NCBI RefSeq assembly: GCF_019649055.1
Contig: NW_026570261.1
Span: forward strand, 248,001 to 312,000
From: Paramacrobiotus metropolitanus
Lineage: Eukaryota; Tardigrada; Eutardigrada; Parachela; Macrobiotidae
Length of the DNA: 64,000 nucleotides
Direction: 5' to 3'
Shown here: positions 995 to 16,001 of the stretch, piece after piece
Layout: each line of letters opens with the position of its first letter
Position numbering within the stretch: the stretch's first letter is position 1
Translations under genes and position numbers: made by a program
The notes under the pieces: model-generated
What the model was told of the DNA's origin: nothing
Seen by the model: only the letters and a program-made list of their open reading frames with translations
Databases searched by the model: none

Positions 995-1130
995 AGAAGA
1001 AAAGAAGCGTTGAAATGGTCACCAAACAAACAACTGATGGCCAAACAAACAATAAACATCTTGTTTACAAACATACTGCATACGACGTGCATTTAACACA
1101 AACAATTCGGCGTCACAACACCACCTTATG
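995..1130 (+). repeat. Polinton terminal inverted repeat, left
   Basis: The first 29 bases (995..1023) match the reverse complement of the right end exactly. Similarity then continues imperfectly through CATCTTGTTTA (about 1057..1067) to AATTCGGCGT (about 1107). The left arm carries an extra block of about 19 bases in which an AAACAAACAA-like unit is repeated. Confidence 0.85.
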
Positions 1131-1450
1131 TTATTGATTTACGATACATCGTCCAACCCGGTGTACCCCATTTGTTTGTTTAAATTTTCCCCACCCATTT
1201 CACCCCTTTCTTTGATTAAATTTTCCCCTCCCTTTTTCTCCCCTTTTTTGTTTTTGCCAACATAACATGCATCATTTTTTTGAGTTTATCACTTTTTTTT
1301 GTTTTTTTGTTAAGCTTTAAAGTAACAAGTGAAACAGTTGTTTATCATTTTCCAAAAGTAGCCGTAGCACTGCAATACTGCAATCGGTATTTTTGACGAT
1401 TTGTGATTTTTTGGTTTTTGTTTTTCACGAATAATAGGTGAAACTTTACA
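1131..1450. other. T-rich non-coding stretch inside the left end of the Polinton
   Basis: The stretch has long T runs (CCCCTCCCTTTTTCTCC, TTTTTTTTGTTTTTTTG) and no open frame of note. It would be the 3' flank of the IAP-like gene, which ends at 1451, so it may hold that gene's untranslated region. Confidence 0.5.
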
Positions 1451-2295
1451 CTAACACAAAAAAACTCGGATTTTTTGAATCACCACAGTTCTGCAAACAG
1501 GACACTGTATCAATCTATCTGAACAGTTATTGCAGCAGGCCAGATGATTACATGGGCGGAATACAACTTGGACTTCATTGTCTAAGCTGACCTTACATTG
1601 CACTTTCTCCAGGGGGTTATTTTCTCTTTTCCTAGCCGCATACGCTTGAGATACCTTGTCACAGATCTGCGCTGATTCCTTTGCTTGCTTGGTCTGAACG
1701 TCGTAGACATACTGTTCTCCTTTTTGTGCTATGACAAATGGACATATGGGCGACGCTCTGGCGTGCTCTTCCCATGCTCCATCGGTGGGAACCCATCTTT
1801 CAAGCTCTCGTCCGCAGTGAAAGCACTGGACGCAATCACCGTTCCGTTATAAAACCAACCGGCTTGGGCCATGACCCTGGGATGCTGAGCTTTTGATTCA
1901 GGCCACTCGGCAAATGTAGAAAAACGAGCCTTGTAATCCATCATGTCTGGAAAGCGCACAGCGTAGCTATAGGTCCCCGGAATAGCAACTGGCGCTGACG
2001 CCCACACCTCCACGACGTCTTCTCCTTCCGCAGTAATGGGTTCAGGTGTTCTCTTTGACATTGGACAGTTTGGAAACAGTAATTGATGATGCCGCCTTGG
2101 GCTTCGGATTTTACCCCATCCGGACATAATACCGTCACAATATGCGCACTGAACTTCATCCCCGGTTCCACGATAAAACATTCCGGCTAAGGCCAAGTAC
2201 GTCGGTGGAAGTAAACTATTGTCCCAATTGGTGTGTTTAAACGTAGCCAGACGATGGATCACATTACGCATGTCCATTTTGCTGTTTAATGACAA
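1451..2295 (-). pseudogene. IAP-like protein (two BIR domains plus C-terminal RING), frameshifted
   Basis: The frame starting at ATG 2295 encodes a first BIR domain with the zinc ligands CxxC, H and C in order, then the beginning of a second BIR (FAEWP, AGWFYNG). Around 1840 the reading frame breaks by one base. The rest of the second BIR (CFHC ... EEHA ... CPF) and a RING continue in a different frame to a stop at 1451..1453. In the RING the first cysteine pair reads CKVS, so the second zinc ligand is serine, while the later HLxCC and CPVC ligands are present. IAPs bind caspases or their activators and act as ubiquitin ligases; in viruses they suppress host apoptosis. Divergent from the virion genes, sharing the 2296..2693 control region. 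Alternative: the frameshift is an assembly error. Confidence 0.85.
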
Positions 2296-2693
2296 AAAAC
2301 TGAATCAATAAAAGCCTGTTTCTAAAACCGAAATCTAAATTTTGCTTGACCATCGTAGTTTATATATAATACCAATAAGGACGAAGCTTCCCAAGTCTCC
2401 GCCTTTACACCTTCTAACAAGGCTTGCAGGGGAAAAAGGCGGAGCAAAATTATCGATTTTTCAGCCAATCGCTACAGTCTTGTGTTGGGAAAAGTTTGAC
2501 CAATGGAAACCATTGCTTTCCATAAAAAGGCGGAGTTTTGGAGGGATTTTATGCGAATCAAAATCCAACACTTTGCAGTCGCTGTAGTCGTGAGGATATA
2601 AAAGGCTAGCGGGTAAACCTTGAATTGTCAGTTGCTTTTCAGTTCCGTAAGAAAAATTGTTTGCTACTTGTTAGTCGCTTTTGCAATCAAAAA
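2296..2693. promoter_or_regulatory. Bidirectional control region between the IAP-like gene and the plus-strand genes
   Basis: TTTATATATAAT near 2360 lies about 65 bases upstream of the minus-strand start at 2295. TATAAAAGG at 2597..2605 lies about 95 bases before the plus-strand ATG at 2694. Between them, a CTCCGCCTTT box (about 2397) and two AAAAAGGCGGAG boxes (about 2433..2444 and 2524..2535) repeat in both orientations. The same box recurs near 10.5 kb and 15.2-15.4 kb in the element. Promoter function is inferred. Confidence 0.6.
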
Positions 2694-3153
2694 ATGGATT
2701 TTGCACGCACTTTGGAGATTTTGGGAGAGCTGAACGGATACATCATCTATAAGGTCAACAATGTGGTAAGTATGTTTTGGAACACGAAAAAGGTCAGTCT
2801 TGTTCTAGCTTTTGATCAGGAAACAGACGGTTACAAAGATCATGAAGAGGCGTTCCGGAAAGGAGTGCGTCTGGGATGTAGTGAAATTTCGGACGTCCTG
2901 AATAAGTTGAAAGCGGGAACTATCCAAGCAGCGATGGACAAGGCAATCACAAGCAAATCTGCGGAAAAGGTCACTCTTGCCGGACCTGCTTGTATGGATG
3001 TACTTCTCAGTATCCATCCTAAATATGGGCGGATGATCCGCTTTTCACAACCCGGGCGCTCTTTACAGATTCCATACCGAGGATTTTTTGGATGTAGCTC
3101 GCATTGTACAGGACAGCTTCTGGGGTCCTGAGGGAGTGTCCATGGATACGTAG
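2694..3153 (+). CDS. Polinton protein of unknown function, probably frameshifted near its end
   Basis: The ATG at 2694 follows the TATAAAAGG box. The frame reads about 145 codons to 3131. A better C-terminus (an acidic helix ending FWGPEGVSMDT) lies in another frame that stops at 3151..3153, suggesting a one-base break near 3050. The protein is helical, mixed-charge and contains no motif I recognise. It is the first gene of the plus-strand block and directly precedes the TBP-like pair, so an early or regulatory role is possible but not shown. Confidence 0.5.
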
Positions 3154-3330
3154 GCTAACAGCATTTGACTTGTGTAACATAATGCACTATTTCGATTTAC
3201 TATGTTTTTGGTCTTTTTACTAATGACAATCTACAGCTTTGTCTGGGATACTTTTAGGTAGCAAAAGAAAATTAAATAGGATAAAAAAAAGGGCTAATGC
3301 CTCTATTCGCGACAGACTGAGTAAGAAACG

Positions 3331-3339
3331 TATATAAAG
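3331..3339 (+). promoter_or_regulatory. TATA box before the TBP-like genes
   Basis: TATATAAAG lies about 40 bases upstream of the ATG at 3378, after an intergenic gap of roughly 180 bases. The spacing fits a core promoter with a short leader. Function is inferred from position. Confidence 0.5.
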
Positions 3340-3377
3340 AATTCGTGCTCATTCTGTCGCGATTAGTGTGTTCAGCC

Positions 3378-3605
3378 ATGGAGATACACAACGTTATTTT
3401 GTCCGTCAGGTTTGACAGAAGGATCGACTTGGACGCGATAACCCGTGTTTTCGGGAACGATGCTACTAAGATGAAAAACTTTAACGCCGTTAACCTTCGC
3501 TTGAATGGTAACACATTCTGTCAACTGTTTGCGAACGGCAAGGCCATCATAAACGGCGGTAAGTCAGTTGATGAAGCGGAGCAACTGCTGCTCTTTATAA
3601 GCTGA
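3378..3605 (+). CDS. TBP-like protein, first half-repeat
   Basis: This 75-residue frame matches the layout of the first pseudo-repeat of the TATA-binding protein core: a strand (HNVILSVRF), a helix with DLDAITRVF, then FNAVNLRL, a strand, and ANGKAIINGGKS, which parallels the FSSGKMVCTGAKS segment of TBP. It ends at a TGA that overlaps the ATG of the next frame as TGATG. The next frame holds the second half-repeat. Either one TBP-fold gene was split by a one-base frameshift, or the element makes two half-proteins. TBP binds TATA DNA and nucleates transcription; a TBP-like gene is not part of the usual Polinton set as I know it. Recognition is by eye from motif order. Confidence 0.7.
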   Translation: MEIHNVILSVRFDRRIDLDAITRVFGNDATKMKNFNAVNLRLNGNTFCQLFANGKAIINGGKSVDEAEQLLLFIS

Positions 3606-3904
3606 TGTTACTTCTGCATGATTTTACTTTGGAGATTAAGGTACGTAGTATAGCAAATATCGTAAGCACTTACCGTCATAGTACAAAAGTCAATCTTGCC
3701 AATTTATACAATAAAAGCAGAACAATACCGGAAGTAAGTAAGGCATTTTTTGAGCCTGAACTATTTCCAGCAGTTCAGATTAAATTTAAGTATTTAGGAG
3801 CCACAGTTAACGTGTTTCATACGGGTAACTGCGTTCTTTTAGGATGTACATCCGTTGTACAAGTGCAGGCAGTTGCAGAAGCGATAAAAACCTCCTGCAG
3901 TTAA
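3605..3904 (+). CDS. TBP-like protein, second half-repeat
   Basis: This 99-residue frame begins in the TGATG overlap with the first half. It contains FTLEIK..IANIVSTYR, then FFEPELFPAVQIKF, then VNVFHTGNCVLLGC. This is the order seen in the second TBP pseudo-repeat (DFKIQNMVGS, YEPELFPGLIYRM, LLIFVSGKVVLTGA). The EPELFP motif is the strongest single match. Together with the preceding frame it gives about 175 residues, close to the 180-residue TBP core. The phenylalanines that kink TATA DNA in TBP are only partly matched, so DNA binding is uncertain. The role could be transcription of the element's own TATA-box genes. Confidence 0.75.
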   Translation: MLLLHDFTLEIKVRSIANIVSTYRHSTKVNLANLYNKSRTIPEVSKAFFEPELFPAVQIKFKYLGATVNVFHTGNCVLLGCTSVVQVQAVAEAIKTSCS

Positions 3905-4027
3905 TTAACCAAAACTCCCAGTAATCGTAAAATTTTAGACTTTTCAACGGAAAATTTTCGGAATTTTGCGGATTTTACAGGTGTGCTGAACTAGCGGCTT
4001 AAGGTCGAATTATCTGAGGTTTTAGAA
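3905..4027 (+). promoter_or_regulatory. Short AT-rich gap before the packaging ATPase
   Basis: This gap of 123 bases separates the TBP-like pair from the tightly packed structural block and is the last sizeable space before 10.5 kb. It has no clear TATA box. A promoter for the structural block would be expected here, but no motif shows it. Confidence 0.3.
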
Positions 4028-4663
4028 ATGGAAAAAATCACTTTTGATTTTCGTTTTAAAACTCCTTGCACAATTTACATTTCAGGACCAACAATGTCTG
4101 GGAAATCAACGTTTACGTTGCAACTCTTGAAAAACGTTTCACAAAGTTTCACTCCCGTCCCTACTCGTATTGTTTACGCGTACGGTACGTGGCAAGAAAC
4201 CTTTTCAACTTTTGACGAATCTATTGAACTTGTACAAGGCATTGATTCCATTATTAATGACGAAAGCTTTTTCAGAAAAGGTGATACAACGCTGCTAATT
4301 TTGGATGATTTAATGGAGGAAATAGCATCTGCTACTAAGGCATCCGCGTTATTTACCCGTGATGTTCACCACAAAAACGTTTCTGTTGTTTTCATCTCAC
4401 AAAACCTTTTCAAGCAAGGAAAGAACATGCGTGATATTTCTCTCAACTCACAATATATGGTCGTATTTAAATCTGTTCGCGACACACAGCAAATAAAAAC
4501 GCTAGCGCATCAGCTGGGCATGCCACACTTGCCAGAAGCTTATAAAAAGGCTATAAAGGAACCGTTTGGATACTTATTAATTAACTTACGTCCGGAAACC
4601 CCCGACAAGGCCCGCTTACAATCGAATATTTTTGGCTACCGAAGAATCTATGTAGAAAAATGA
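4028..4663 (+). CDS. Polinton genome-packaging ATPase (FtsK/HerA, A32-like)
   Basis: The protein has 211 residues, the usual length for Polinton packaging ATPases. Walker A is GPTMSGKST (residues 20-28), Walker B is LLILDD (89-94), followed by VVFISQNLF, which parallels the conserved sensor strand of the family. These ATPases pump DNA into the preformed capsid. The frame is intact. Its stop TGA overlaps the start of the next gene as ATGA (4660..4663), typical of the packing in this block. Confidence 0.92.
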   Translation: MEKITFDFRFKTPCTIYISGPTMSGKSTFTLQLLKNVSQSFTPVPTRIVYAYGTWQETFSTFDESIELVQGIDSIINDESFFRKGDTTLLILDDLMEEIASATKASALFTRDVHHKNVSVVFISQNLFKQGKNMRDISLNSQYMVVFKSVRDTQQIKTLAHQLGMPHLPEAYKKAIKEPFGYLLINLRPETPDKARLQSNIFGYRRIYVEK

Positions 4664-4980
4664 AGCCAGAAGAAATTCTCAAGCTAATCGACGCTCTACG
4701 TTTGATGACACCCAGACAGCAGAGAGCGTTTTTTCAATTTTCTACTACTAAACAGGTCGCTGCAATTGAAGAAGCCTGCTTGAACCTTATTAAGCAACCA
4801 AAGGGGTTAAGTAAAACACATTTAGCGAAAGCACGTGCTCATGTTGGAAAAATAAAGCGACTAGCTGATCGGAATTTAACGCGTGAAAAAAAGAAAAAGC
4901 TTTTACAGCAAAAAGGTGGATTTTTAGGAGTTCTTCTACCAGTTTTGGGAACTCTTTTAACATCGTTCCTAACAAAATGA
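4660..4980 (+). CDS. Small basic Polinton protein with hydrophobic C-terminus
   Basis: This 106-residue intact frame starts inside the ATPase stop (ATGA) and ends in another ATGA (4977..4980). It has an N-terminal helix (EEILKLIDALRLMTPRQQRAFF), a lysine-rich stretch (REKKKKLLQQKGG) and a hydrophobic tail (FLGVLLPVLGTLLTSFL). A basic segment followed by a glycine pair and a hydrophobic tail is common among small accessory proteins between ATPase and integrase in invertebrate Polintons. QKGG-F resembles, but does not exactly fit, an adenain cleavage site. A core or membrane-active role is inferred. Confidence 0.7.
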   Translation: MKPEEILKLIDALRLMTPRQQRAFFQFSTTKQVAAIEEACLNLIKQPKGLSKTHLAKARAHVGKIKRLADRNLTREKKKKLLQQKGGFLGVLLPVLGTLLTSFLTK

Positions 4981-6185
4981 AGACTTACGTGTTAGTACCG
5001 GAATCAGAATTCGTAAGTGGCAAAAATAGGTCAGGTCCAACATCTACTTGGAAAAGGGCCCAAGAAATTAGCGATAACATGAATCAGCAGCTAATGGTGC
5101 GAGCCGCCTTGGAGAACCAACGTCCGGTTACGCGCCTGCCGGTTAGCGAGACACCAAACTATACCATAGAAAGCAATACCTTGCCATCGGAACTTTGCAT
5201 AAGCCAGCAACCGTGTCAAAATACGTTGAGGCAAAGCCGCTAATGCAAGATGCATTTTTCAAACCGGACCTTTGCTTGAGAGCCGTGGTATCCAGGTTAG
5301 TACAGCAACAAATGACCAGCAAATTCAAGCAAATTCGTCACCCCAAATTGAGTACGTACAGTCCGAGCCGTTGGTGCATTACGTACAAGTGCCCGCGGAC
5401 CCAATCGTGCACTATGTTCCTACAACCGTGCCGAGCGAACCTGTTGTCCACTATGTTCCAACCCCTTCGAAAACTTTAGTCAAACACGTATACAAATCCC
5501 CAAAAGTCCCACCAATAACTAAAAGCGTGGTGTTCCAAAAACTTCCCGTAACACCATGCCGAAGAAGAACCAGGCGCCAACTATAGAGTTTGCACCGACA
5601 CCACCAAGCATACAAGATGCACCGCAAGAACCACCAATTGTTGAGTTTCCTCCTGACGGAGTTCTGGATTACGAACCCCATGAAAATCCAGCACTGCCGT
5701 CAAATATAAATGCAAAGGCACTTAATTATCAACCAAATAAAGTCTCACTGCGACGAAGTACACGTAAAAATTCAGCGTTACCGTATGCTGGTACGCGACT
5801 AGCCATCGAGGGACCTTCCACCAGCTTACAGGTTTTAGGTAAGGCGTTGGCTCCAATTAAAACCGCGGTGCGTCGTAAGACTCGCGATAAAACTGCTCTG
5901 TTGCCGACGTCTACGCAACTGTCTGTTGAAAATGCCTTAACTGTTCCGGGGCTAACGGGCCCGTCGGCACCCATGCCAATTGAAGCAGCGCATAGAAAAG
6001 TTATAACATACAACCCACAGCCTGCGAAAACAAAAAATAATGTTCAGTTAAGTAGCCAAAAGGATGAAGAACAAGAAACCAACACATATAGGCGGAGAAT
6101 CGCTAGAGCCCCAACAAAGTTCTACGGACCACCACGTAAAAAACAGCGTACAACACAAACTGGAGGGTGGTTAAACTATGCTTAA
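4977..6185 (+). pseudogene. Proline-rich basic core-like protein with VHYVP repeats, several frameshifts
   Basis: Coding-like sequence passes through successive frames: the one starting at ATG 4977 to about 5190, a second to about 5270, a third to about 5560, then the first again to a stop at 6183..6185. At least three shifts are needed. The third segment holds tandem VHYVP-type units (VHYVQVPADPIVHYVP, then SEPVVHYVPT). The last segment is rich in proline and basic clusters (RRSTRKN, VRRKTRDK, PPRKKQR) and ends TGGWLNYA. Composition suggests a DNA-condensing or scaffold protein of the virion, but I recognise no domain. It is broken in this copy and overlaps the integrase start by eight bases. 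Confidence 0.6.
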
Positions 6186-7244
6186 AATGGTAACACTAGA
6201 TGAAATTTACCTGGATGCCGGGAACCCCGGTAGCCTTGGAGGAGATTGAACGTCTGTTTAAAGAAGCTCAAAACATAATTATACACGTCAGCAAGTTGAA
6301 CAATACTTACAGTCTAAGGACGCGTATACACAACATAAAGCATACCGCTCAAAGTTTAAACGAAGAAAAATTATATCAGTAAATGTAGGAGACCAACACC
6401 AAATTGACTTGATGGATATGCAAAAGTTTCGTAAAGAAAACGATGGTTTTAATTACGTGCTGACGTGTGTTGATTGTTTCTCCAGATATGGTTGGGCGGA
6501 GCCAGTGAAGTCAAAAAAGCCGCCAGAAATTGCTGCAGCGCTCAGCACAATTTACAAACAATGCAGTCCGCCACTGCGCTGTCAAAGTGATAACGGTAAA
6601 GAATTTGTTGGAAGAGAAATGCGTGCATTTTTTAAAGAATGTAATGTAACCTTTTTTACTACTCGAAATGATGATGTAAAATGCGCAATGGTAGAACGAC
6701 TCAACCGTACCATTAAAAACCGTATGTACGTATACATGACTGAAAAAAACACATATCGATACATAGACGTTTTGCCACAGATAATGCAAGGGTATAATAG
6801 CACTGTGCATTCTTCAACCGGTTATGCTCCAGAAAACGTTGGAGTAAACGAGAGCAACTCTATCCTTGAACGTATGCTCAGCGAACAAAAGAAATCAAAG
6901 GGGCCCGCATTTACAGCTGGCGACCATGTGCGAATTGCCAAAAGAAAAAACACGTTCGAAAAGGTTACGAAACAAATTACACGGAAGAAATTTTTAAAGT
7001 AGTCAGAGTTTTAAAACATAAAAGCCATTTTTTGTATGCTATCGAAGACCTAGCTGGTGAAGCAATCGACGGACACTTCTATGCTTCCGAACTGTCAAAA
7101 TTTGTAATGACTGAGAGGCCATACCATCGCATTTCTAGGATATTAAGGGAGCGCACACACAAGGGTAAAAAACAATATCTGGTACGTTGGTATGGCTACG
7201 GCCCCGCGTATGACTCTTGGGAAAACGCAAACGAATTAAAATGA
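6178..7244 (+). pseudogene. Polinton integrase (retrovirus-like rve core plus chromodomain), frameshifted
   Basis: The N-terminus at ATG 6178 (LDEIYLDAGNPGSLGG) is the conserved start of Polinton integrases, but an in-frame TGA follows at 6247 and local frame changes occur to about 6280. The catalytic core is open to 7002: a first Asp in IDLMDMQ, the second in SDNGKEF (about 6588) and Glu in VERLNR (about 6694), spaced as in DDE integrases. A further shift near 6970 moves into the frame that carries IEDLAGE and a C-terminal chromodomain (YHRISRILRER ... YLVRWYGYGPAYDSWENANEL) ending at 7244. Integrase inserts the element, leaving 6-bp duplications; chromodomains can direct insertion to modified histones. 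The stop overlaps the next ATG as ATGA. Confidence 0.9.
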
Positions 7245-7982
7245 GTTTTTACTTGACACTGCCATCTTCGGCGTCTCGTGATTTGTATCCAAAAAACTGT
7301 CCCGGACATTTCACAACTTTATTAGCCAGGGCAGTGGATCTGGACGGTACCTGGGAAGTTGCGTTATCAGAATTAATACTTCCTCCTATGCAGTTAAAAT
7401 TTAATAGCGGCTTAGTGGTTGGTATTGCGCGAACTAATTATCCCACTCGGGAGACTCGTTTTTTAAGTGAAAAGCATATCCGGACGAAAACCGGTTAATA
7501 CACGCTGTTAATGTGCTTTTGCGTGATGGCGCGACGGATGATGAACCAGTTTTATATGGTCATATCGTAGTCAGTGGTAACTCCTCTGAACTAAGTATCA
7601 GACCAGACACCACCCTGACGTTCCACGGTGCAGAGTATACCCGTGCTTTAGGTTTGCTGCAAGACTACAGTTATACGGGCAGTGATAGCCCTACTTATGT
7701 CCTCCACCCGGGAAACATAATCGCATTGTACACGTCTACTGTGACATCATTGAATACGGTCTAGTGGGGGATGCTATGGTTCCTTTGTTGCGCACGATAT
7801 CAACGCAAGCGAGCTCGTTTGAAGATACGTGCATCCGTTTTGAAAGCCCTCACTACGTACCTATAGCCCGTCATACGTTCCAAACAGTTGAAATTAAAGT
7901 ATGCGATGATTTAGGTAATGAAGTGTTTTTCCATCCAGGTACTGCAATAATCAAACTACACTTCCGACTGAAAAAACACTAA
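7241..7982 (+). pseudogene. Polinton minor capsid (penton-like) protein, frameshifted
   Basis: The start MSFYLTLPSSAS and the following LARAVDLDGTWEVALSELILPP match the conserved N-terminus of Polinton minor capsid proteins, which form the pentons of the predicted particle. The frame breaks near 7496. The middle part (RPDTTLTFHGAEYTRALG) lies in a second frame, and after another break near 7720 the C-terminal part (DAMVPLLRTI, SPHYVPI, ETVEIKV-like strand, LHFRLKK) is in a third. Gene order, directly before the core peptide and major capsid genes, is standard. Two shifts make it non-functional as it stands. Confidence 0.85.
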
Positions 7983-7984
7983 AA

Positions 7985-8356
7985 ATGGTACTCCAAGAAC
8001 TTAAATTCGATGAATCTCGCTACATTCAAATATTCAATCGTCAGCACGGTTACGGAATGCCCGTTTACCGCGGTGCACCAATGACGGGTGGCAGCTTTTG
8101 GGGTCGCATCATAGGATTTGCGCGGGGGTTGTTTAGTAAGGCTGCACCTCACATCAACAACATGATTGCTACCGCCCAACCACACATGAAGACATTTGCC
8201 TCGAAAGCGGTAGAATCAGCCATCGATAAAGCTGTCGAGCACGTCAGTGAAAAAATACGTCAACAAAGCGGCTCAGGCATTAAGGGACGAAAGAAAAAAA
8301 TAGTCAGCATTAATAAGAAGCAACGAGCAATTGACGCGATAAAAGACAAACTGTAG
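7985..8356 (+). CDS. Adenovirus pX/pVI-like core and membrane-active peptide precursor
   Basis: This intact 123-residue frame starts three bases after the minor capsid stop. GYGMPVYRGAPMTGGSFWG contains M-T-G-G|S at residues 33-37, which fits the adenain consensus (M/I/L)XGG-X. After it come an amphipathic segment (FWGRIIGFARGLFSK), helices and a basic tail (GIKGRKKKI). A cleaved leader followed by an amphipathic helix resembles adenovirus pVI and pX, which lyse membranes or condense DNA. The likely processing enzyme is the protease encoded two genes downstream. The role is inferred from this motif and the gene order seen in Polintons. Confidence 0.75.
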   Translation: MVLQELKFDESRYIQIFNRQHGYGMPVYRGAPMTGGSFWGRIIGFARGLFSKAAPHINNMIATAQPHMKTFASKAVESAIDKAVEHVSEKIRQQSGSGIKGRKKKIVSINKKQRAIDAIKDKL

Positions 8357-8358
8357 CA

Positions 8359-9705
8359 ATGGCGCTTATAGAAAACGGCTCAGAGCCATCAATGTTGTTA
8401 GAGAGTCACTTATTCTACTTACCTTCAACACTAACGGAACGATGGAATACCAGAGATTATTATTTGGGGCCCTCACAAGCCACGACCGACGAATCCAATG
8501 ATTTTTCATTTACTGTAGCTCCATGTCAGTCGGAATTGGTTAGCTTAGCCGATATTCGATTTACGTGCGATCTTCACGTTACTAATGCAGCTGGAACCAT
8601 ACCAACGGATAGCGACTGTTTGGCCCCTATTAACAACATTGTACACAGTCTTTTCGAGCAAGTTAGTGTTACTCTAGGCGGTCGCAGTATATCGGACAGT
8701 AGCTCGATGTATCACATTCGCGCTTATTTGGAGAGCCTTTTGGGTTATACAAAACAAGCGCAGCTAACCCAACTAAGTCTGGGTGGGTTCGCTATGGACA
8801 CTGAAATGTCCAAAGATCCGATTTTCACAGAGAAAGTAGACGGAAAATCATCTTTCCATAGTGAAGGTGCTGAAAAAAGGCGAAAGTGGATACAAACATT
8901 GAAGCCACTCCAGTTGTCAGGCAAGTTGCTCTGCGACTTGTTTCAGCAGGATCGCCCACTTATACCAGGCGTAGAGTTAAGCATCAAACTGATTCGTAAC
9001 CGAAAGAATCTAGCGTTTATTGCCGATAGCGACCTGGCAGCACCTAAAGTTGTAGCGATTCGGAATCCCCGATTGCGTATACGCAAATACGAACCAGCTC
9101 CGGATTATCTTGCCGCAATGACAAAGCAACTGGTTGGCAATAATGCAAAATATCACGTTGAACGCGTTGCGATGCGGCAGTGTACTCTGATATCTGGTCA
9201 GCAACAACACGTGTGGGCGAATATCGTGATTGGACAGCTCCCAAAGGTAATGTTCCTAGCCCTATCACCCAGTCGTTCTTTTGCTGGGGAATACAAGTCA
9301 ACTCCCTTTAATTTCGATCATTTTAACCTGTCTTATGTCCATGCCGAGATCGACGGCCAGCTGTTTCCCACTCGAGGATACAATTTAGATTATGAAAACG
9401 GGGCCACAGCCGAGGCCTACGAAGGACTTTTAGACACACTGGAGCGTTTAGGAGAAGGTCCGGGCGAGCTACCCTTTGATCGTTCGGATTACAATGCTGG
9501 TGGCTTTTGTATTTACGGCTTTGACTTCACTCGCGGACATACTGGCCGCGGGGCTCTTTCTCTAATTAGGCAAGGCAATCTTAACATTAATTTTAAATTT
9601 GCCAAAGCTTTAAAGGAAGGAGTGGTGTGTGTTGCAATGTTAGTCTTTGACAACGTTATCGAAATAAATAACAACAGACAGGTTTTGTTTGATTTTGCTC
9701 CATGA
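8359..9705 (+). CDS. Polinton major capsid protein (double jelly-roll, hexon-like)
   Basis: This intact frame of 448 residues starts two bases after the preceding stop. Conserved stretches include LVSLADIRFTCDL, PINNIVHSLFEQVSVTLGG, the FNFDHFNLSYVHAEIDGQ segment and YGFDFTRGHTGRG near the C-terminus, in the order seen in Polinton and adintovirus capsid proteins. It would form pseudo-hexameric capsomers of an icosahedral particle. It is the longest uninterrupted gene of the element although neighbours on both sides are frameshifted. Its stop TGA overlaps the next ATG (9702..9705, ATGA). Confidence 0.93.
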   Translation: MALIENGSEPSMLLESHLFYLPSTLTERWNTRDYYLGPSQATTDESNDFSFTVAPCQSELVSLADIRFTCDLHVTNAAGTIPTDSDCLAPINNIVHSLFEQVSVTLGGRSISDSSSMYHIRAYLESLLGYTKQAQLTQLSLGGFAMDTEMSKDPIFTEKVDGKSSFHSEGAEKRRKWIQTLKPLQLSGKLLCDLFQQDRPLIPGVELSIKLIRNRKNLAFIADSDLAAPKVVAIRNPRLRIRKYEPAPDYLAAMTKQLVGNNAKYHVERVAMRQCTLISGQQQHVWANIVIGQLPKVMFLALSPSRSFAGEYKSTPFNFDHFNLSYVHAEIDGQLFPTRGYNLDYENGATAEAYEGLLDTLERLGEGPGELPFDRSDYNAGGFCIYGFDFTRGHTGRGALSLIRQGNLNINFKFAKALKEGVVCVAMLVFDNVIEINNNRQVLFDFAP

Positions 9706-10525
9706 ACAGTATAGAAATCGACAATGCCCTTAGAAGGGATCCAATAGTTCGTGATATTTTTGTTGAGTCTTTCCTTGTGATAAAATTCCTGACAAAGAAT
9801 TTCCGGGTGCCTACATCGTGAATACGCAACCTAGCACTGCCTCGGGAGAGCACTGGGTCGCATTTTACTGCACTAAACCCGGTACAGTGGAAGCCTTTGA
9901 CTCGTTTGGACGAAACCCAGCAGAGTATTCTCCACACATCAAAGACTGGATAGGTCAAGACTACATTACCATGTCAAATACGATGCGACAAAGCATAGAT
10001 TCTACAGTCTGTGGTCAGTACTGTATGTTTTACGTACTTCTACGTTGTCGAGGGTATTCCTATGAAGATGTTATGTCCGCCTTAACCAAGCATAAAGGCG
10101 TGAATGACAAATTTATTCGAAAATTTATAAACAAGTACTTTAACCTGCACACTGCGCTACGAGACGATAATTTTATAAGGCAACTAATAAAAATGGATAG
10201 ACCCCAAAAAATAGCAACACTTATCTTCTGGGGTCTTATGATCTCCGTACTACTAATATTCAATGTTCTTGAGATATGCAATCATGTTTCCCGAAAAACT
10301 AACCTGACTCAATCCAATGAGATCACTAAACATGTCTTGAACTTGATGATGAGTGATGCCGAATTCAGTAATGGATCGGTGTTTGGTCACTCACCGGCCC
10401 TGCCGGTGAGTGCCCAAACACCCTGCCGCTCGCCGCCTCTAAACAAAGCTGTCCACATGATTCCTGACAACTTAGACTTGAACACAAGTCTGGGAGAAAA
10501 GGCGGTGCTTGCCGCAGTATTTTAA
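9702..10525 (+). pseudogene. Adenain-like maturation protease with extra C-terminal membrane segment, frameshifted near its start
   Basis: The frame from ATG 9702 gives the usual protease N-terminus (short helix, RRDPIVRDIF) but breaks near 9770. The catalytic part is open in another frame to 10525: His in GEHWVAFY (about 9851), Asp/Glu region in EAFDSFG (about 9899), Gln in RQSIDS and the nucleophile Cys in TVCGQYC (about 10010). This is the His-Asp/Glu-Gln-Cys order of adenovirus protease, which cleaves capsid and core precursors. After the fold, about 110 more residues follow, including a predicted transmembrane helix (ATLIFWGLMISVLLIFNVL). This may be a fused or separate small gene (internal ATG 10194). 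One frameshift inactivates the N-terminus. Confidence 0.88.
10380..10423. repeat. Near-perfect hairpin inside the protease C-terminal extension
   Basis: GTGTTTGGTCACTCACCGG is followed after five bases by its near-perfect reverse complement, giving a stem of about 19 pairs with loop CCCTG. It lies just before the end of the plus-strand coding block. It could act at RNA level as a transcript 3'-end structure or at DNA level; function is unknown. Confidence 0.75.
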
Positions 10526-10594
10526 CGCCGGTAGTAGTGCAGTTGGAAATGGAAAGTGATTGGTTGTAAAATGCAGCAACATGCTCCGCCTTTT
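10497..10594. promoter_or_regulatory. GGCGG boxes at the end of the coding block
   Basis: AAAAGGCGGTG (10497..10507) and, inverted, CTCCGCCTTTT (10584..10594) flank the stop at 10525. They match the boxes in the 2296..2693 control region. They may mark a promoter for the right part of the element or a symmetric replication or packaging signal. Confidence 0.45.
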
Positions 10595-13463
10595 CGGCTG
10601 CACATTATGTGTACGGACTTCAATGTGCTAAACGGTCGCAATATTTTAACTGAGAGAAATGTTTAGCTGCTAGTCTGGGGTACTTCAAATACTTTCAAAT
10701 ACCGGTACAATTCGCTTATCGAGTTGTATCCATGTAGCGTACCGTATCCATGTAAGTAAATAATATTTTAATTTTACAAGGTTTGAAAGTAGGATTTTTC
10801 TAATAAAAACGTATTCCTCGAGTGAGCGCAGATGCGAAAAAGTATATCTTTAATTCTTCATTCATGCAATGTCAATATCCTGAAGCGACCAAAGTGTAAT
10901 AGAAGGAGGGGGTAAATACACGGGATAGACAGGAAAAACGGCAATAATAAGGGATAACCATTCAGGTGTTGTGCACCATGGCCAGCCGCCAAGGGAAAGC
11001 AGTCCAGCGACACTACACAAAATTCATGCTTTGAGACCCGAGCTGCCTTCTCCGTAGACTCCTACGTTATACTCAAACACCTACGTCTTCGAGAATTCAG
11101 AATCAAACCGTGTAATCTACATCTTAAAGAGCAAGAAATAATTAACAAGATTTTCGATACCACGCAAGCCGTGATCTATGAGAAACAAGACAAGTTAGAG
11201 CCAATTAAGTTTCCCATAGACAAAGCAATGGAGCTCCGTGAAAACAAATCATCCAACTCCTATGCTTAGTCTACGAGAAACTCAAATGGTTCAGTCTTGC
11301 TTCAGTTTTAATTAGTGGCGAATTATTTCGTATCAAAAATCTTGTAAATTTTTTCTTGTTCTTTTGAGCTATCGATTGTGCGGATTAGTTCTGAAATATG
11401 CAAGACGAAGGTGGTTGTGTTTAACATAGAAGTCTACGGAGAAACAGCTCGAGACTGGAGTCTCAACGACTGATCTGCACAGTGTCACTAGAACTGCCTT
11501 CCTTGGTGGCTGGCCGTGTTGCACAACACGTGAAGGGTTATCCCTTATTATTGCCGTTTTTCTATCTTTCCCGTGTATTTACCCCTCCTTGTACCCGTAA
11601 TTCGTTAAGGTTTTATATACGAACATTTAACAAATTTCAGTTGGCAATACATCGATATGTATTAACACGGCTGTCGTAACTAGTTACACTCCATGAACTC
11701 AAACCTAACATTTCCAGTACACACAAGTCGAGCGCGGAGCGCGAGGCTTACCCTTCGTCGACCGAAGCGTAACGAAAGCCTATGTTCAAGAATAATGCAA
11801 AATGTGGTGTGTATATGCGTGGGTAACCACCAGCAAATGCACGTATGCACGATGGTACCTGTCACCAAATGCACAGCACGGTTGCCGTATATACTCACGC
11901 CACATATAACTCGTAGTGTCTGTACGTCGGTCACCGTCAGGAAATGCTAACATGCACGGTGATATTTGCACCCGGATGCCCACCTATGCACGGTAACCGT
12001 ATATATTGGCCGGTGGTAATCTCCCCGATATGATCAAAAGATTACTGCGTTTGCTTTTTGGTAACAATGGCAACATAGCGCTACCGAACGTTCGTGGGGG
12101 CATTATTACCTGTCACAAGCGATGGGCTTCATCACCAGTACTGGAATCGTTAGCCGATAGCGACAGTATCAATTTACCGGTTTCCGTTAAACATTTTTGA
12201 TTCAATATTCTAGTTTGGTGTTGCAGACACAGTCCAGTACCATAATACTGTTCCTGAAACTCTTTTCTTGACACCCACTCCGGACTTCTGACATTGTACA
12301 ACATAACAAAAACTAAGTAACGAAATAATACTAGAAAAACCCCAAATTGTGCAATTTCCGGCAAATATGTCCCCACAGACATTTTTGCAGTGCCCCATTA
12401 GCGAACCAAACAACCCTGTGCGATAAAAAAATCAAAACAAATTAATATCCCGGTTATTAACAAGTACCTTCTAGAAAACTGCCTAATCGGAATAGCACTC
12501 CGTTAGCATTACTAAGGGCAATTTCGTGTAAATGGTAGCCCTCCGGCCAAGTCGGTATCACCAGATTTTGACATGATAGACCTATACGGGAACGCTGCTT
12601 TTCAGTTCAGTTTTTAGTTTTCTATAAAACGTCACCAGCGTTACTAAATCCAACCCCTCCTACCGCATTCAGCAGATTTACTGTGCCATTGACTGCTTTG
12701 CATATTATGTGCATATTGTGGCGGTGACCTTCCACAGCACTGTATGAACCGGCATAAATTTTTCCACTAGAGTTGAAGAAATTATGATTTTTGTGTACAG
12801 TGTCGAAACATGTATTCGAAACACTTACGTAATTGCGAAATTTTATGTAAATGCTTACCGGCGCCTGAGGCCGAGATTTCACTATTGTCATTGTACTAAA
12901 ATTATACCAGCTGGAATGAGAGCATTAAATAATCGAAAAAGAGTGCCCACTGTAAAACGGGGTGTCATCATTTAGGATATAGTCCTGCTCCGCTTCGATC
13001 CTGCAGTGCGCGCAAAAGCGAGTGCACTTTTCTAGTATGTAGTACACAATACTAAATACTTATTTTGTACATTTTTTATTTTTGCGGTATAGATTTACGA
13101 GCTGTACACTCTTCAGGCTGCGCAAGGCCGACCTCGCGCAAAAATTGCACAATAAGGTCACAAAAGAACAGCAACAGATAAGGTATTGGAGAATAAAAGC
13201 ACTGACCTATTTTTACCGCGTGTGTGTCACTATTCCGGAAGCAGATGGTTGGTTTGCAAACAAAAGAGTACACTTTTGAGAAACATTTGAAGGAACTATG
13301 ATGCAATACTGTTTTATTTTACCTTTACTCATATTCTACGTTTTAATTAGCACGCAGATCAGATTGTGCATATCCGGAATAAAGATCCGTACAAACCACT
13401 ATTTAAATCTCACTGTCCCCTAACAACCGCATTAATCATTTTATAATTTTCAAATTGTAACAG
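10595..13463. other. Mostly non-coding right part of the Polinton, left portion
   Basis: No capsid, polymerase or integrase sequence is visible on either strand. It holds the 10902..11595 inverted-repeat unit. On the minus strand near 12640..12890 there is a short open stretch with possible splice signals (donor GTAAGC near 12858), but no recognisable domain. The rest is AT-rich. Confidence 0.5.
10902..11595. repeat. Long inverted-repeat unit (MITE-like) nested in the Polinton
   Basis: About 165 bases at 10902..11066 match the reverse complement of about 11427..11595 at roughly 80-85 percent identity. The shared blocks include GGTAAATACACGGG, AACGGCAATAATAAGGGATAAC and TCTCCGTAGACT. The 360-base centre contains an open frame of about 70 codons without ATG (about 11067..11270, ending NKSSNSYA), possibly the remains of a gene. 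No target duplication is clear. It could be a nested non-autonomous transposon or a foldback structure. Confidence 0.7.
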
Positions 13464-14125
13464 AATGCCGCACGGTCGCGTAGCGAAAAAACTAGAGGTA
13501 GAGCCTCTCCCGCTCCAGGCGAGCCGGTGCAATACTGCCGGTTGGCCGTATTCACCAGGCTATGATTCAGGGTAGCCAAACTGAAGAATCCGCATCTGTA
13601 TTCATGGCCGGCGTTCTAGAGTATTTGGTTGCCGAACTCCTGTTCCTTGCTGGAAACGTGGCAGAAGTTGCACGTGCCACCGACATCAAGCCGGGTCACA
13701 TTGATCAAGCCATTCGTGACGATCCGGAGGTAGGTTTTGTAAATACATATGCTACTTGCTTATTACGGTCGCATAAATATTATCATTACACCCTTATTAA
13801 AAATTATCATTAAATATCATAAATATAATATTATAAAATTTGTAATTATAATATTTAATATTATCATACTCCCTTATTAAATATTACAAATATTATCATA
13901 CACCCTTATTAAATCCGGCAATTATTATTATCTACAGGTACTGCAAGTCATGCTGGTATGCGACAACGCAAAAGCTATCTAAAATATTTATAACGCTCAT
14001 ATCTGTATAGACCTATTTGTTGATATTACGTATATGAAATCATAATAATACTTTCTTCTTCGCAGTTTACAACGCTCTTGTGGGGTGTGCTCCTGGGATG
14101 GTGCGATCGCCATAACCGCCGCTAA
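13464..14125 (+). pseudogene. Divergent histone H2A-like gene with an intron, N-terminus out of frame
   Basis: The stretch 13506..13729 encodes SRSRRAGAILPVGRIHQ, then FMAGVLEYLVAELLFLAGNVA and IKPGHIDQAIRDDPE. These align in order with the H2A histone fold (RAGLQFPVGRIHR, AAVLEYLTAEILELAGNAA, PRHLQLAIRNDEE). A donor (GAG|GTAGGT) follows and a pyrimidine-rich acceptor (CTTCGCAG) at 14058..14065 leads to a 20-codon exon beginning FTTLLWGV, parallel to the LNKLLGGV segment, ending at 14125. The ATG at 13464 is in another frame, so a frameshift near 13505..13520 or an unseen exon is needed. H2A packages DNA with H2B in nucleosomes. The copy lies inside the Polinton boundaries and is very divergent, with a shortened tail. 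It may be captured cargo or a host-derived pseudogene. Confidence 0.7.
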
Positions 14126-15226
14126 TAGATTTTGCTCGAGATGTCGTACTGTCTGCTGATGTGCTAATAAAAACTTGTTTTCCTCATGAATTTTGAAATG
14201 TTAACAATATTAAAAAACTAAACTTGCTTTAGCTAGTTGAGTGGAATCTATATTCAGTGGAATGTGAATGTTATCCCGTACTTCTGTTTTGGAATAAAAT
14301 AATTTTCAGGTGTCTCCCACACCTGACAGTCTCGTAGTCCATCAGGACCACATCATAATAACTGAACGCGTTACCAAGCCTGTCACAATAAACTGCCTTT
14401 GACAGCAAAAAAATCCTGCCGACTTTACAGTAAGCAGTAATATTTTCAGTCACTGACATTAAAATTCGGGCAATACTGTATCTGCACAGTCATCAATGAG
14501 AATCTATGAGAACTTAAGTGAGTGTATCAATGAGAAGTTGTGCACAGTCTATCAATGAGAACTTAAGTCGAAATACAGTTGGCTACCATACAACACAAAC
14601 CGCATCGAAATAGTCAGTAGTAGGTACCTATTTTTACCGTATAGTGTAGAATAACGACGTAGTTGTCCGAAAATCCAGTTCAATAAGATCAAGAAAAAAA
14701 CCCCTTGGGTGCCGTATCCTTAGCTTTTCCAGCATCAGTTATCAGTTTCCAGGGTGGTACAGCAACCGTGTTCTCCCTCACAATGTAACGTACCAGGATC
14801 GAATACGCTTTATTAGACTGTCCACTAGCCATGTAAAACCGACGTCCCACAAAATACAGTATGAGTACATTGCTAAGAGGTGTACGTCCATTTGGACCCC
14901 GCCAAACAATCTCGTGAGGCCCCAGGGCTTAACTTTTATAATAATTATTAGAATGATAGCCAGTATGAGTATGATAGAATGGGTATGATAGCCTGCTCAT
15001 TACACAAAAAATTGTAAACATACGGTGAACTACAGCAATAAACAGATTACTGTACATACAAAATGCATACACAGTACGTACACAGTATAACTATACGAGT
15101 ACATACATAAATTAAACAGACAAAGCTACTGTGTAGAAAATTTATATACAGTAGTCATTATCGTTGCACAAAGTGGTTCTCGTGCAAGCAGTTCTTAGGG
15201 CGTCAGTTTACCGATCTGATCATCGC
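14126..15226. other. Non-coding sequence of the Polinton right part
   Basis: The sequence is AT-rich with frequent stops and short repeated phrases (such as TATGAGTATGATAGAATGGGTATGATAG near 14965, and CTATCAATGAGAACTTAAGT repeated near 14500 and 14550). No gene is supported. Confidence 0.5.
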
Positions 15227-15401
15227 CACGCCTTATCGCACCTGTGATATACTGTGGAGAGACAAAAGGGGAGTGTAAACATTCCGATTTTACAGCCAAT
15301 GAGTGCCCATCTCAGCACATAGACACTATTGGGTAGAAAATACGGTGGCCAGCACCGCCTTTTCATCTCTCGCAGTGTATCACAGGTGTGATAAGGCGGA
15401 G
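15227..15401. repeat. Inverted repeat bounded by GGCGGAG-type boxes
   Basis: CACGCCTTATCGCACCTGTG (from 15227) is mirrored at about 15366..15401 (CACAGGTGTGATAAGGCGGAG). The arms are about 36 bases with a few mismatches. An extra CACCGCCTTTT lies at 15353. The outer bases are the same GGCGGAG-like box found in the 2.3-2.7 kb control region, so this may be a second control or replication site. Confidence 0.65.
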
Positions 15402-15450
15402 TAAGGTAACAAAACGGGCGTCCAGCATTAACTGATTGTTATAACTATGT

Positions 15451-15567
15451 GTATGGTGCGTCGGGAGACATTCCATGAAAAAGTAGGTCACCGGACAGCG
15501 TCATGCTGAATTAGGTCGGCATATGAATAGGCAGTCCATCTCAAGGAATGTCTCCCGGCGCGCCATG
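15451..15567. repeat. Imperfect hairpin near the right end of the Polinton
   Basis: The arms GTATGGTGCGTCGGGAGACA (15451..) and GGAATGTCTCCCGGCGCGCC (about 15545..) are inverted copies around an interior of about 65 bases, sharing the core CGGGAGACATTCC. Function is unknown. Confidence 0.6.
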
Positions 15568-15861
15568 CACAACTTCACTCGAAATCCAACAGCCGACGTC
15601 TGGATACTTAGTGTGAACAACACCACTGCACTAACATCATTATAATTTACTTAAACTAAACTACTTTATGGTAACATTAATCATAGTTAAATACAGAATA
15701 CTATTGCGATAGTTATTATTATTGTTTAAGAATTTAAGTTAATAACGTAATTTACTGTTAGGATTATGATTATAACCATATAGCTAACTAAATAAAAACA
15801 TAAGTTTGTTGTTGTAATGGGTTTAACGTTGTTGTAATTATAGTCGTAATTATTGTTGTGT

Positions 15862-15995
15862 TCCAGATGTTATTGTTTATTGTAGCTACGCCGAATTATT
15901 GATGTTTAGAGTGTTTGTAAATAATAATATGTCTGTTATTCATAAACAAGATGTTAATGTTTGTCCGGTGACCATTTCAACGCTTCTTTTCTTCT
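15862..15995 (-). repeat. Polinton terminal inverted repeat, right
   Basis: The reverse complement of this end starts AGAAGAAAAGAAGCG and matches the left end exactly for 29 bases. Similarity resumes at ACATCTTGTTTA and at AATTCGGCGT. The element ends at T15995. Confidence 0.85.
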
Positions 15996-16001
15996 GATAT
16001 A
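15996..16001. repeat. Target-site duplication, right copy (GATATA)
   Basis: This is an exact copy of 989..994 directly after the right terminus, fixing the insertion boundary. Confidence 0.9.

Follow-up and report, generated by a model that had tools for sequence, protein, structure and literature searches.

Polintons, or Mavericks, are considered close to the origin of many DNA viruses of eukaryotes, and their transcription is believed to rely on the host nucleus. Genes for a TATA-binding protein (TBP) or for PUR/PC4-type proteins are not known to belong to the standard Polinton gene set. Viral proteins with a TBP fold are found in other settings: they include TBPs of the Nucleocytoviricota, such as that of Heterosigma akashiwo virus 01, and the B263R homologue of an asfa-like virus. 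Giant-virus TBPs reside in large genomes. A mirusvirus TBP gene cluster is recorded for 59% of mirusvirus genomes and 0% of Nucleocytoviricota, and mirusviruses are described as large, with a genome of 431.5 kb named (PMC10132985); their capsids are described as HK97-type (PMC10675990, PMC10132985). As regards Polintons themselves, no report of a TBP was found in a search of open-licence papers, and TBP, TATA and transcription factor receive zero mentions in the main text of PMC11071308, PMC4642659, PMC11071296 and PMC10120064.

In the tardigrade Paramacrobiotus metropolitanus, positions 3378-3904 of the 64,000-nucleotide stretch of DNA analysed here (the window) constitute a TBP gene that belongs to a Polinton-type element. 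The element and its features are the following.

995-15995, + strand: Polinton-type element with TBP gene, 15,001 bp, with inverted-repeat ends and a 6-bp target duplication, GATATA, at 989-994 and 15996-16001.
1729-2295, - strand: BIR-domain (IAP-like) gene inside the element (PF00653, E 4.2e-21).
2597-2603, + strand: TATA box of the gene before TBP, in 18 of 21 distinct homologous upstream stretches.
2694-3131, + strand: gene before TBP, of a family with a predicted PUR/Whirly/PC4-type fold; the 3' end of the window copy is unlike that of its relatives.
3307-3362, + strand: covarying inverted repeat (hairpin) of 15 bp just before TBP, whose 22-nt loop contains the TATATAAAG motif (from 3331).
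3378-3605, + strand: first TBP pseudo-repeat, 75 amino acids from the ATG at 3378, stop codon at 3603-3605 (PF00352, E 1.4e-9; PDB 1mp9, E 2.1e-8).
3605-3904, + strand: second TBP pseudo-repeat, 99 amino acids, with the EPELFP stirrup (PF00352, E 5.9e-12; PDB 1mp9, E 1.6e-5).
4028-4663, + strand: A32-type packaging ATPase (weak Pox_A32 match, E 2.6e-4, 21.0 bits against a cut-off of 22.8).
6409-7002, + strand: rve integrase core (PF00665, E 3.7e-12).
7032-7244, + strand: chromodomain (PF00385, E 6.1e-10), in relatives the C-terminal part of the integrase.
8359-9705, + strand: putative major capsid protein family gene, 448 amino acids; its relatives occupy at least 93 merged loci and are also seen on environmental contigs.

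With animal Polintons/Mavericks (adintoviruses) this element shares an rve integrase with chromodomain, a putative capsid-gene block, a packaging ATPase, inverted repeats and the 6-bp target duplication, and related TBP-bearing elements share the DNA polymerase B (PolB), protein-primed in Polintons, as well; TBP and the PC4/PUR-type genes are what the tardigrade elements possess in addition. The inverted-repeat arms at the termini are 43 nt long and 93% complementary, and the same left end recurs in seven other insertions with differing flanks. The chromodomain occupies the same frame as rve in the related locus L046, and also in L047, where it falls below the cut-off. The ATPase of the window is just under the Pox_A32 threshold, which its homologue in L047 passes (E 8.4e-9). 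The gene at 8359-9705, for which Pfam and PDB sequence searches returned no match, presumably encodes the major capsid protein, a name given by homology and position; in Polintons this protein is of the double-jelly-roll type. Pfam domains of an integrase are present in the neighbourhoods of L046 and L047, and those of a polymerase (PolB, PF03175) in the TBP-bearing relatives L041 and L046. Searches of the window element with the PolB of two relatives as queries gave no match, and because no PolB was found the window copy is classed as a Polinton-derived, PolB-lacking element and not as a complete Polinton: it is probably without autonomy and may be defective. Compared with giant-virus TBPs, to which the likeness comes from a fold match (the best named match in a viral structure library has E 1.6e-13), the TBP described here is accommodated in a 15-kb element with an integrase. 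Mirusviruses, likewise DNA viruses with a TBP, differ by their large genomes and HK97-type capsids.

The TBP gene of the window is distributed over two adjacent frames, the stop codon of the first overlapping the ATG of the second. The landmarks from which the original prediction had recognized both TBP pseudo-repeats, namely NGKAIINGGKS, EPELFPA and GNCVLLGC, are all present and in the order described. The family profile search that it had proposed for the separate frames placed each of them above the curated PF00352 cut-off of 22.9 bits: searched alone, the first aligns with positions 3-74 of the 85-position profile at 38.1 bits and the second with positions 3-78 at 45.7 bits. A PDB sequence search matched the first frame to 26 distinct TBP-containing sequences (best E 2.1e-8) and the second to a single TBP (E 1.6e-5). 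Six unbroken relatives score between 81.7 and 133.8 bits against PF00352 with two matched stretches apiece. Fold matches likewise show the two-repeat saddle of the TBP family. In the window the gene is broken where its two repeats meet. Unbroken homologues in related Polintons, for which the prediction had suggested a search, occupy the same place in contigs C31 (L015), C103 (L016), C298 (L018), C57 (L019), C32 (L020) and others.

The genome searched amounts to 169.8 Mb, and the TBP, ATPase and capsid searches scored part of the candidates, so that all counts refer to the matches listed. The Pfam TBP search yielded at least 150 matches (150 of 493 candidates scored), and the second-repeat frame at least 113 other matches, some of them overlapping. 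Merging resulted in 197 TBP loci among the matches listed, fragments and the host gene included, 131 of which lie no more than 12 kb from a listed ATPase match. Conversely, a TBP is found within 12 kb of 129 of the 150 listed ATPase loci, compared with about 2% by chance; this count set 150 Pfam TBP matches and 113 of 114 second-repeat matches against 150 of 151 ATPase matches. Homologues beside the ATPase, whose absence from related Polintons would have refuted the original prediction by its own terms, are abundant, and at 50 loci among the matches listed the ATPase is situated less than 300 bp downstream of TBP on the same strand, as in the window. Analogously, 82 of the 93 listed merged capsid loci have a TBP within 12 kb, chance being about 2-3%. 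The capsid count employed all 103 capsid and all 10 PC4 matches together with a partial set of TBP matches, from which second-repeat duplicates and weak matches were left out, giving 213 TBP loci, a total that counts fragments and the host gene. Element-borne TBPs hence adjoin most listed ATPase and capsid loci of the P. metropolitanus genome, and the earlier claim that the pair of frames is the element's own is confirmed by the element ends and the many further copies. By eye, the neighbours of L039 and L045 look like integrase and capsid-region genes.

Relatives are also found beyond this genome. Four environmental contigs longer than 9 kb, matched by equal size, are common to the TBP set (14 contigs) and the capsid set (15 contigs), and a control with jittered sizes gave at most 2 shared contigs, with a mean of 0.013. 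It is therefore very likely that TBP-bearing relatives exist outside the P. metropolitanus genome. One of the four, of 21,688 bases, harbours two overlapping partial TBPs. Two TBP profiles and a single protein used as queries against the viral contigs of IMG/VR found no relative. In a phage collection queried with one environmental relative, the sole match was the TBP of Halorubrum virus HRTV-9, a virus of a haloarchaeon, at 29% identity. A capsid relative, P0173, is present in the tardigrade Hypsibius exemplaris, and similar elements may reside in that second tardigrade.

Of 17 pairs of unbroken TBP genes compared, nine had a dS below 1, and their dN/dS ratios were 0.12-0.37; seven had a dS above 1, where the ratios of 0.06-0.16 are poor estimates, and one pair gave no value. 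These ratios indicate that the element TBP family evolves under purifying selection. Residues were examined in 39 distinct full-length copies (representing 68 loci), 62 environmental proteins (150-260 amino acids, among P0001-P0064), the piece of host TBP and 10 references, which also make up the tree. The wedges, the minor-groove Asn, the Arg as TFIIA contact and the EPELF stirrup as TFIIB contact are taken to act as in the TBP literature. The conservation table was divided by eye into two groups, A and B, a division consistent with the tree. All 39 copies have aromatic residues at the four wedge positions, one of these being Tyr in all 19 members of group B, and 37 and 38 of the 39 retain the first and the second Asn, respectively; Tyr in group B aside, the DNA-contact set of four wedge Phe and two Asn is therefore retained by the family. 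The stirrup residues are kept in 20/20, 20/20 and 19/20 copies of group A and are loosened in group B to 6/19 (the first Glu), 16/19 and 10/19. The TFIIA-side Arg is absent from all 39 copies, in eight of them by a gap. Most cellular TBPs, eight of the ten references, have Thr at a second-repeat position; Leu is found there in 39 of 39 element copies and in 60 of 62 environmental relatives.

Element TBPs are 21-27% identical to the TBPs with which they were aligned and are separated in the tree from cellular TBPs (PF00352), eukaryotic and archaeal. In this unrooted tree of 112 rows the cellular TBPs, namely archaeal, eukaryotic and the host's own, fall on one side of a branch with support 100/98. 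Group A, the family of the window, comprises 20 tardigrade and 11 environmental members (100/99), and group B comprises 19 tardigrade and 51 environmental members (98/95). Besides the host's, the references include one animal TBP and a long-branched mite protein, and no TBP of a giant virus or mirusvirus. The host TBP, on contig C4, pairs with the animal reference, snake TBPL2 (99/79), and the element TBPs are therefore not recent copies of the host gene. A single origin of the element TBPs is compatible with the tree, which is unrooted and for which the tool warned of meeting long branches.

The TATA motifs that the original prediction had placed at 2597 and 3331 both exist, and its proposal that the TBP pair has its own TATA box gains from the frequency of the motif, which exceeds chance in the group to which the window copy belongs. 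Among 43 distinct upstream stretches, 24 have TATAWAW in the 120 bp that precede the TBP ATG, compared with a mean of 1.7 and a maximum of 5 in shuffles and 0 on the opposite strand; 22 of the 24 are located at -46 or -47, all in group A, and no TATAWAW is found within 120 bp upstream of group B TBPs (0/18). The gene upstream of TBP is preceded by TATAWAW in 18 of 21 distinct stretches, the ATPase in 0 of 28 upstream stretches, which were not made distinct. As related copies are not independent, all these counts overstate the number of events. The reading of a Polinton-encoded TBP-like fold, with possible transcription from the element's own TATA promoters, is thus supported. Upstream of group A ATPases, where TATA is missing, GGAATTTT/GAGTTTTTG-like stretches recur by eye some 70-80 bp before the ATG and are a possible late-promoter motif.

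The TATA motif before TBP is enclosed in a hairpin-forming repeat. A rigid dyad axis was rejected for this repeat, at most 57% of cells fitting it, because the spacing varies by one base between subfamilies, and a gapped alignment was therefore used, covering 13 of 14 distinct stretches with L011 left out and with L029 lacking the TATA motif. In this alignment 99.5% of 195 cells form standard pairs and seven pairs are changed on both sides, a covariation reached by 0 of 500 shuffles, and slid structures reach 27-50% pairing; a single aligned row served as the model for the structure, a choice that favours it. RNA folding of the window strand across the repeat gives a z of -5.0. Group A hairpins contain an invariant GTATATAAAG loop (L012, L015, L016, L018-L020, L022, L027, L030-L033 and L035), and no Rfam family matched the hairpin around the TATA motif. 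The repeat may be an operator dyad in DNA or a hairpin in RNA.

The gene before TBP (window 2694-3131; L016:2244-2699) belongs to no sequence family. Its predicted fold matches the PUR/Whirly/PC4 type slightly above background, and comparison with PC4-like proteins revealed no sequence link (hhalign probability 1), which makes the predicted fold a lead only. PC4 domains are located 1.07-1.54 kb from TBP in all nine non-host matches listed. These PC4-domain genes lie beside group B TBPs at nine places, including L003:2520-3230 on contig C81, and weaker PC4-like relatives occur beside group B TBPs at L047:6907-7737, L041:5637-6374 and L007:2663-3169. A strong PC4 match (81 bits) at G000:C41:233819-233977, 17.6 kb from the window TBP, is probably the host's own PC4 gene.

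The explanation that we favour, and hold to be rather probable as a whole, is that the element's own TBP would be an initiation factor that recruits host TFIIB and Pol II and operates an early-to-late switch with feedback. The host would first read two TATA-containing early genes, the PUR/PC4-like gene and TBP. An unbroken element TBP would then bind and bend promoter DNA via its four aromatic wedges, use its conserved EPELFP stirrup to bring in TFIIB and Pol II of the host, and cooperate with the PUR/PC4-type protein encoded next to it, a putative binder of single-stranded DNA. With central TATA contacts altered relative to cellular TBP, it would feed back on its own promoter and switch on a TATA-less late block starting with the ATPase, a block judged solely from the ATPase upstream stretch. 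We infer these steps from sequence. The main reason for the early-to-late reading, which is probably the role of the element TBP, is the replacement of the second-repeat Thr by Leu, as a change at this central contact may mean that a different sequence is targeted. What the model says about TATA is limited to group A because group B combines the absence of upstream TATAWAW with a Tyr wedge and a loosened stirrup.

A more far-reaching and decidedly tentative proposal is that an animal Polinton lineage has its own initiation module, consisting of a TBP whose central TATA contacts are altered and a PUR/PC4-type single-stranded DNA-binding partner. Host-readable TATA promoters would make viral TBP, which would then select TATA-less late promoters in an early-to-late programme, and the conserved hairpin around the TATA box would make TBP production self-limiting. 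Like giant viruses and mirusviruses, these small elements carry a portion of the transcription machinery, and the possession of a TBP by most element copies checked suggests that they bring their own gene switch. The question of when and how DNA viruses gained initiation factors of their own becomes testable, and the element TBPs, 39 of them read as distinct full-length copies, offer dozens of natural variants with changed DNA and partner contacts as a resource for TBP specificity.

Two other accounts concern the origin and the state of the window gene. A host TBP gene or pseudogene duplicated by chance near or into the elements would be in keeping with the 66 of 197 merged TBP loci situated more than 12 kb from any listed ATPase match, one of which is the host gene itself; yet the host TBP groups with cellular TBPs apart from those of the elements, synteny extends to ATPase and capsid genes, environmental relatives exist and two of the 'far' TBPs (L039 and L043) adjoin, by eye, genes resembling those of the integrase and capsid regions, and this origin is extremely improbable. 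The split of the window gene could also be functional, the overlapping stop and start permitting reinitiation and the two half-TBPs forming a heterodimer reminiscent of a one-repeat TBP ancestor. Each half in the window stays open and spans its own repeat, and the same broken form is common to C41, which is the window copy, and five other insertions at different sites (C50, C10, C56, C90 and C158), the copy in C54 being broken further. These copies and that of C31 share the left end and differ in their flanks, and they are therefore separate insertions. However, C31, the closest unbroken copy at 99% identity, and more distant relatives have one frame, the ATPase is likewise broken in some of the same copies, and none of the environmental proteins looked at displays a clean half-and-half split, the two pieces on the 21,688-base contig overlapping. 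Moreover, the eight copies compared differ over 3.1 kb by 8-29 gap events against 2-19 substitutions, an excess of gaps that fits decay or assembly indel noise, and no argument is therefore built on the break. A functional split is very unlikely. Gaps outnumber substitutions in most pairs of these near-identical copies, and the excess may be assembly noise, which would affect other 'broken' genes too.

Two further accounts accept a true TBP and interpret its role or its upstream motif differently. One of them, somewhat short of an even chance, holds that the TATATAAAG motif is the loop of a leader-RNA hairpin that tunes TBP translation or RNA stability and is not a promoter. Its 15 pairs, the covariation and the folding z score agree with this account, and the single-side events, by our reading seven of G-U type against one A-C on the + strand, favour RNA over symmetric DNA; but seven against one is a small sample, the structure comes from one aligned row, a dyad operator around TATA would covary as well, the loop reads as a TATA box without mismatch, 47 bp upstream of the ATG, and the ordinary TATA boxes of the neighbour gene suggest that the element uses such boxes. 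Rather unlikely is a TBP directed at the host, which would sequester TFIIB or occupy host TATA boxes (host shut-off), or one that would bend DNA for replication or packaging. The retention of the group A stirrup alongside the absence of the TFIIA-side Arg, the position of the gene next to packaging and capsid genes and the BIR gene in the same element, suggestive of host manipulation, would suit such roles, whereas a pure decoy would not need the wedge and Asn residues that are kept, two genes of the element itself have conserved upstream TATA boxes in group A and a PC4- or PUR-type gene lies next door. The switch model described above remains the reading that we prefer.

Some minor features accompany these elements. 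Rfam at gathering thresholds detected no family in the window element, and PHROGs gave matches at chance level only. The interval 10525-15995 of the window, about 5.5 kb, is devoid of any recognised gene or PolB, and inside it lies an 82-nt inverted repeat (10933-11014 and 11481-11562). Directly before group B TBPs there is a conserved gene of unknown family ('LDADWF...'), present at L007:1679-2227, L040:7419-7895, L041:5248-5772 and L047:7972-8592.
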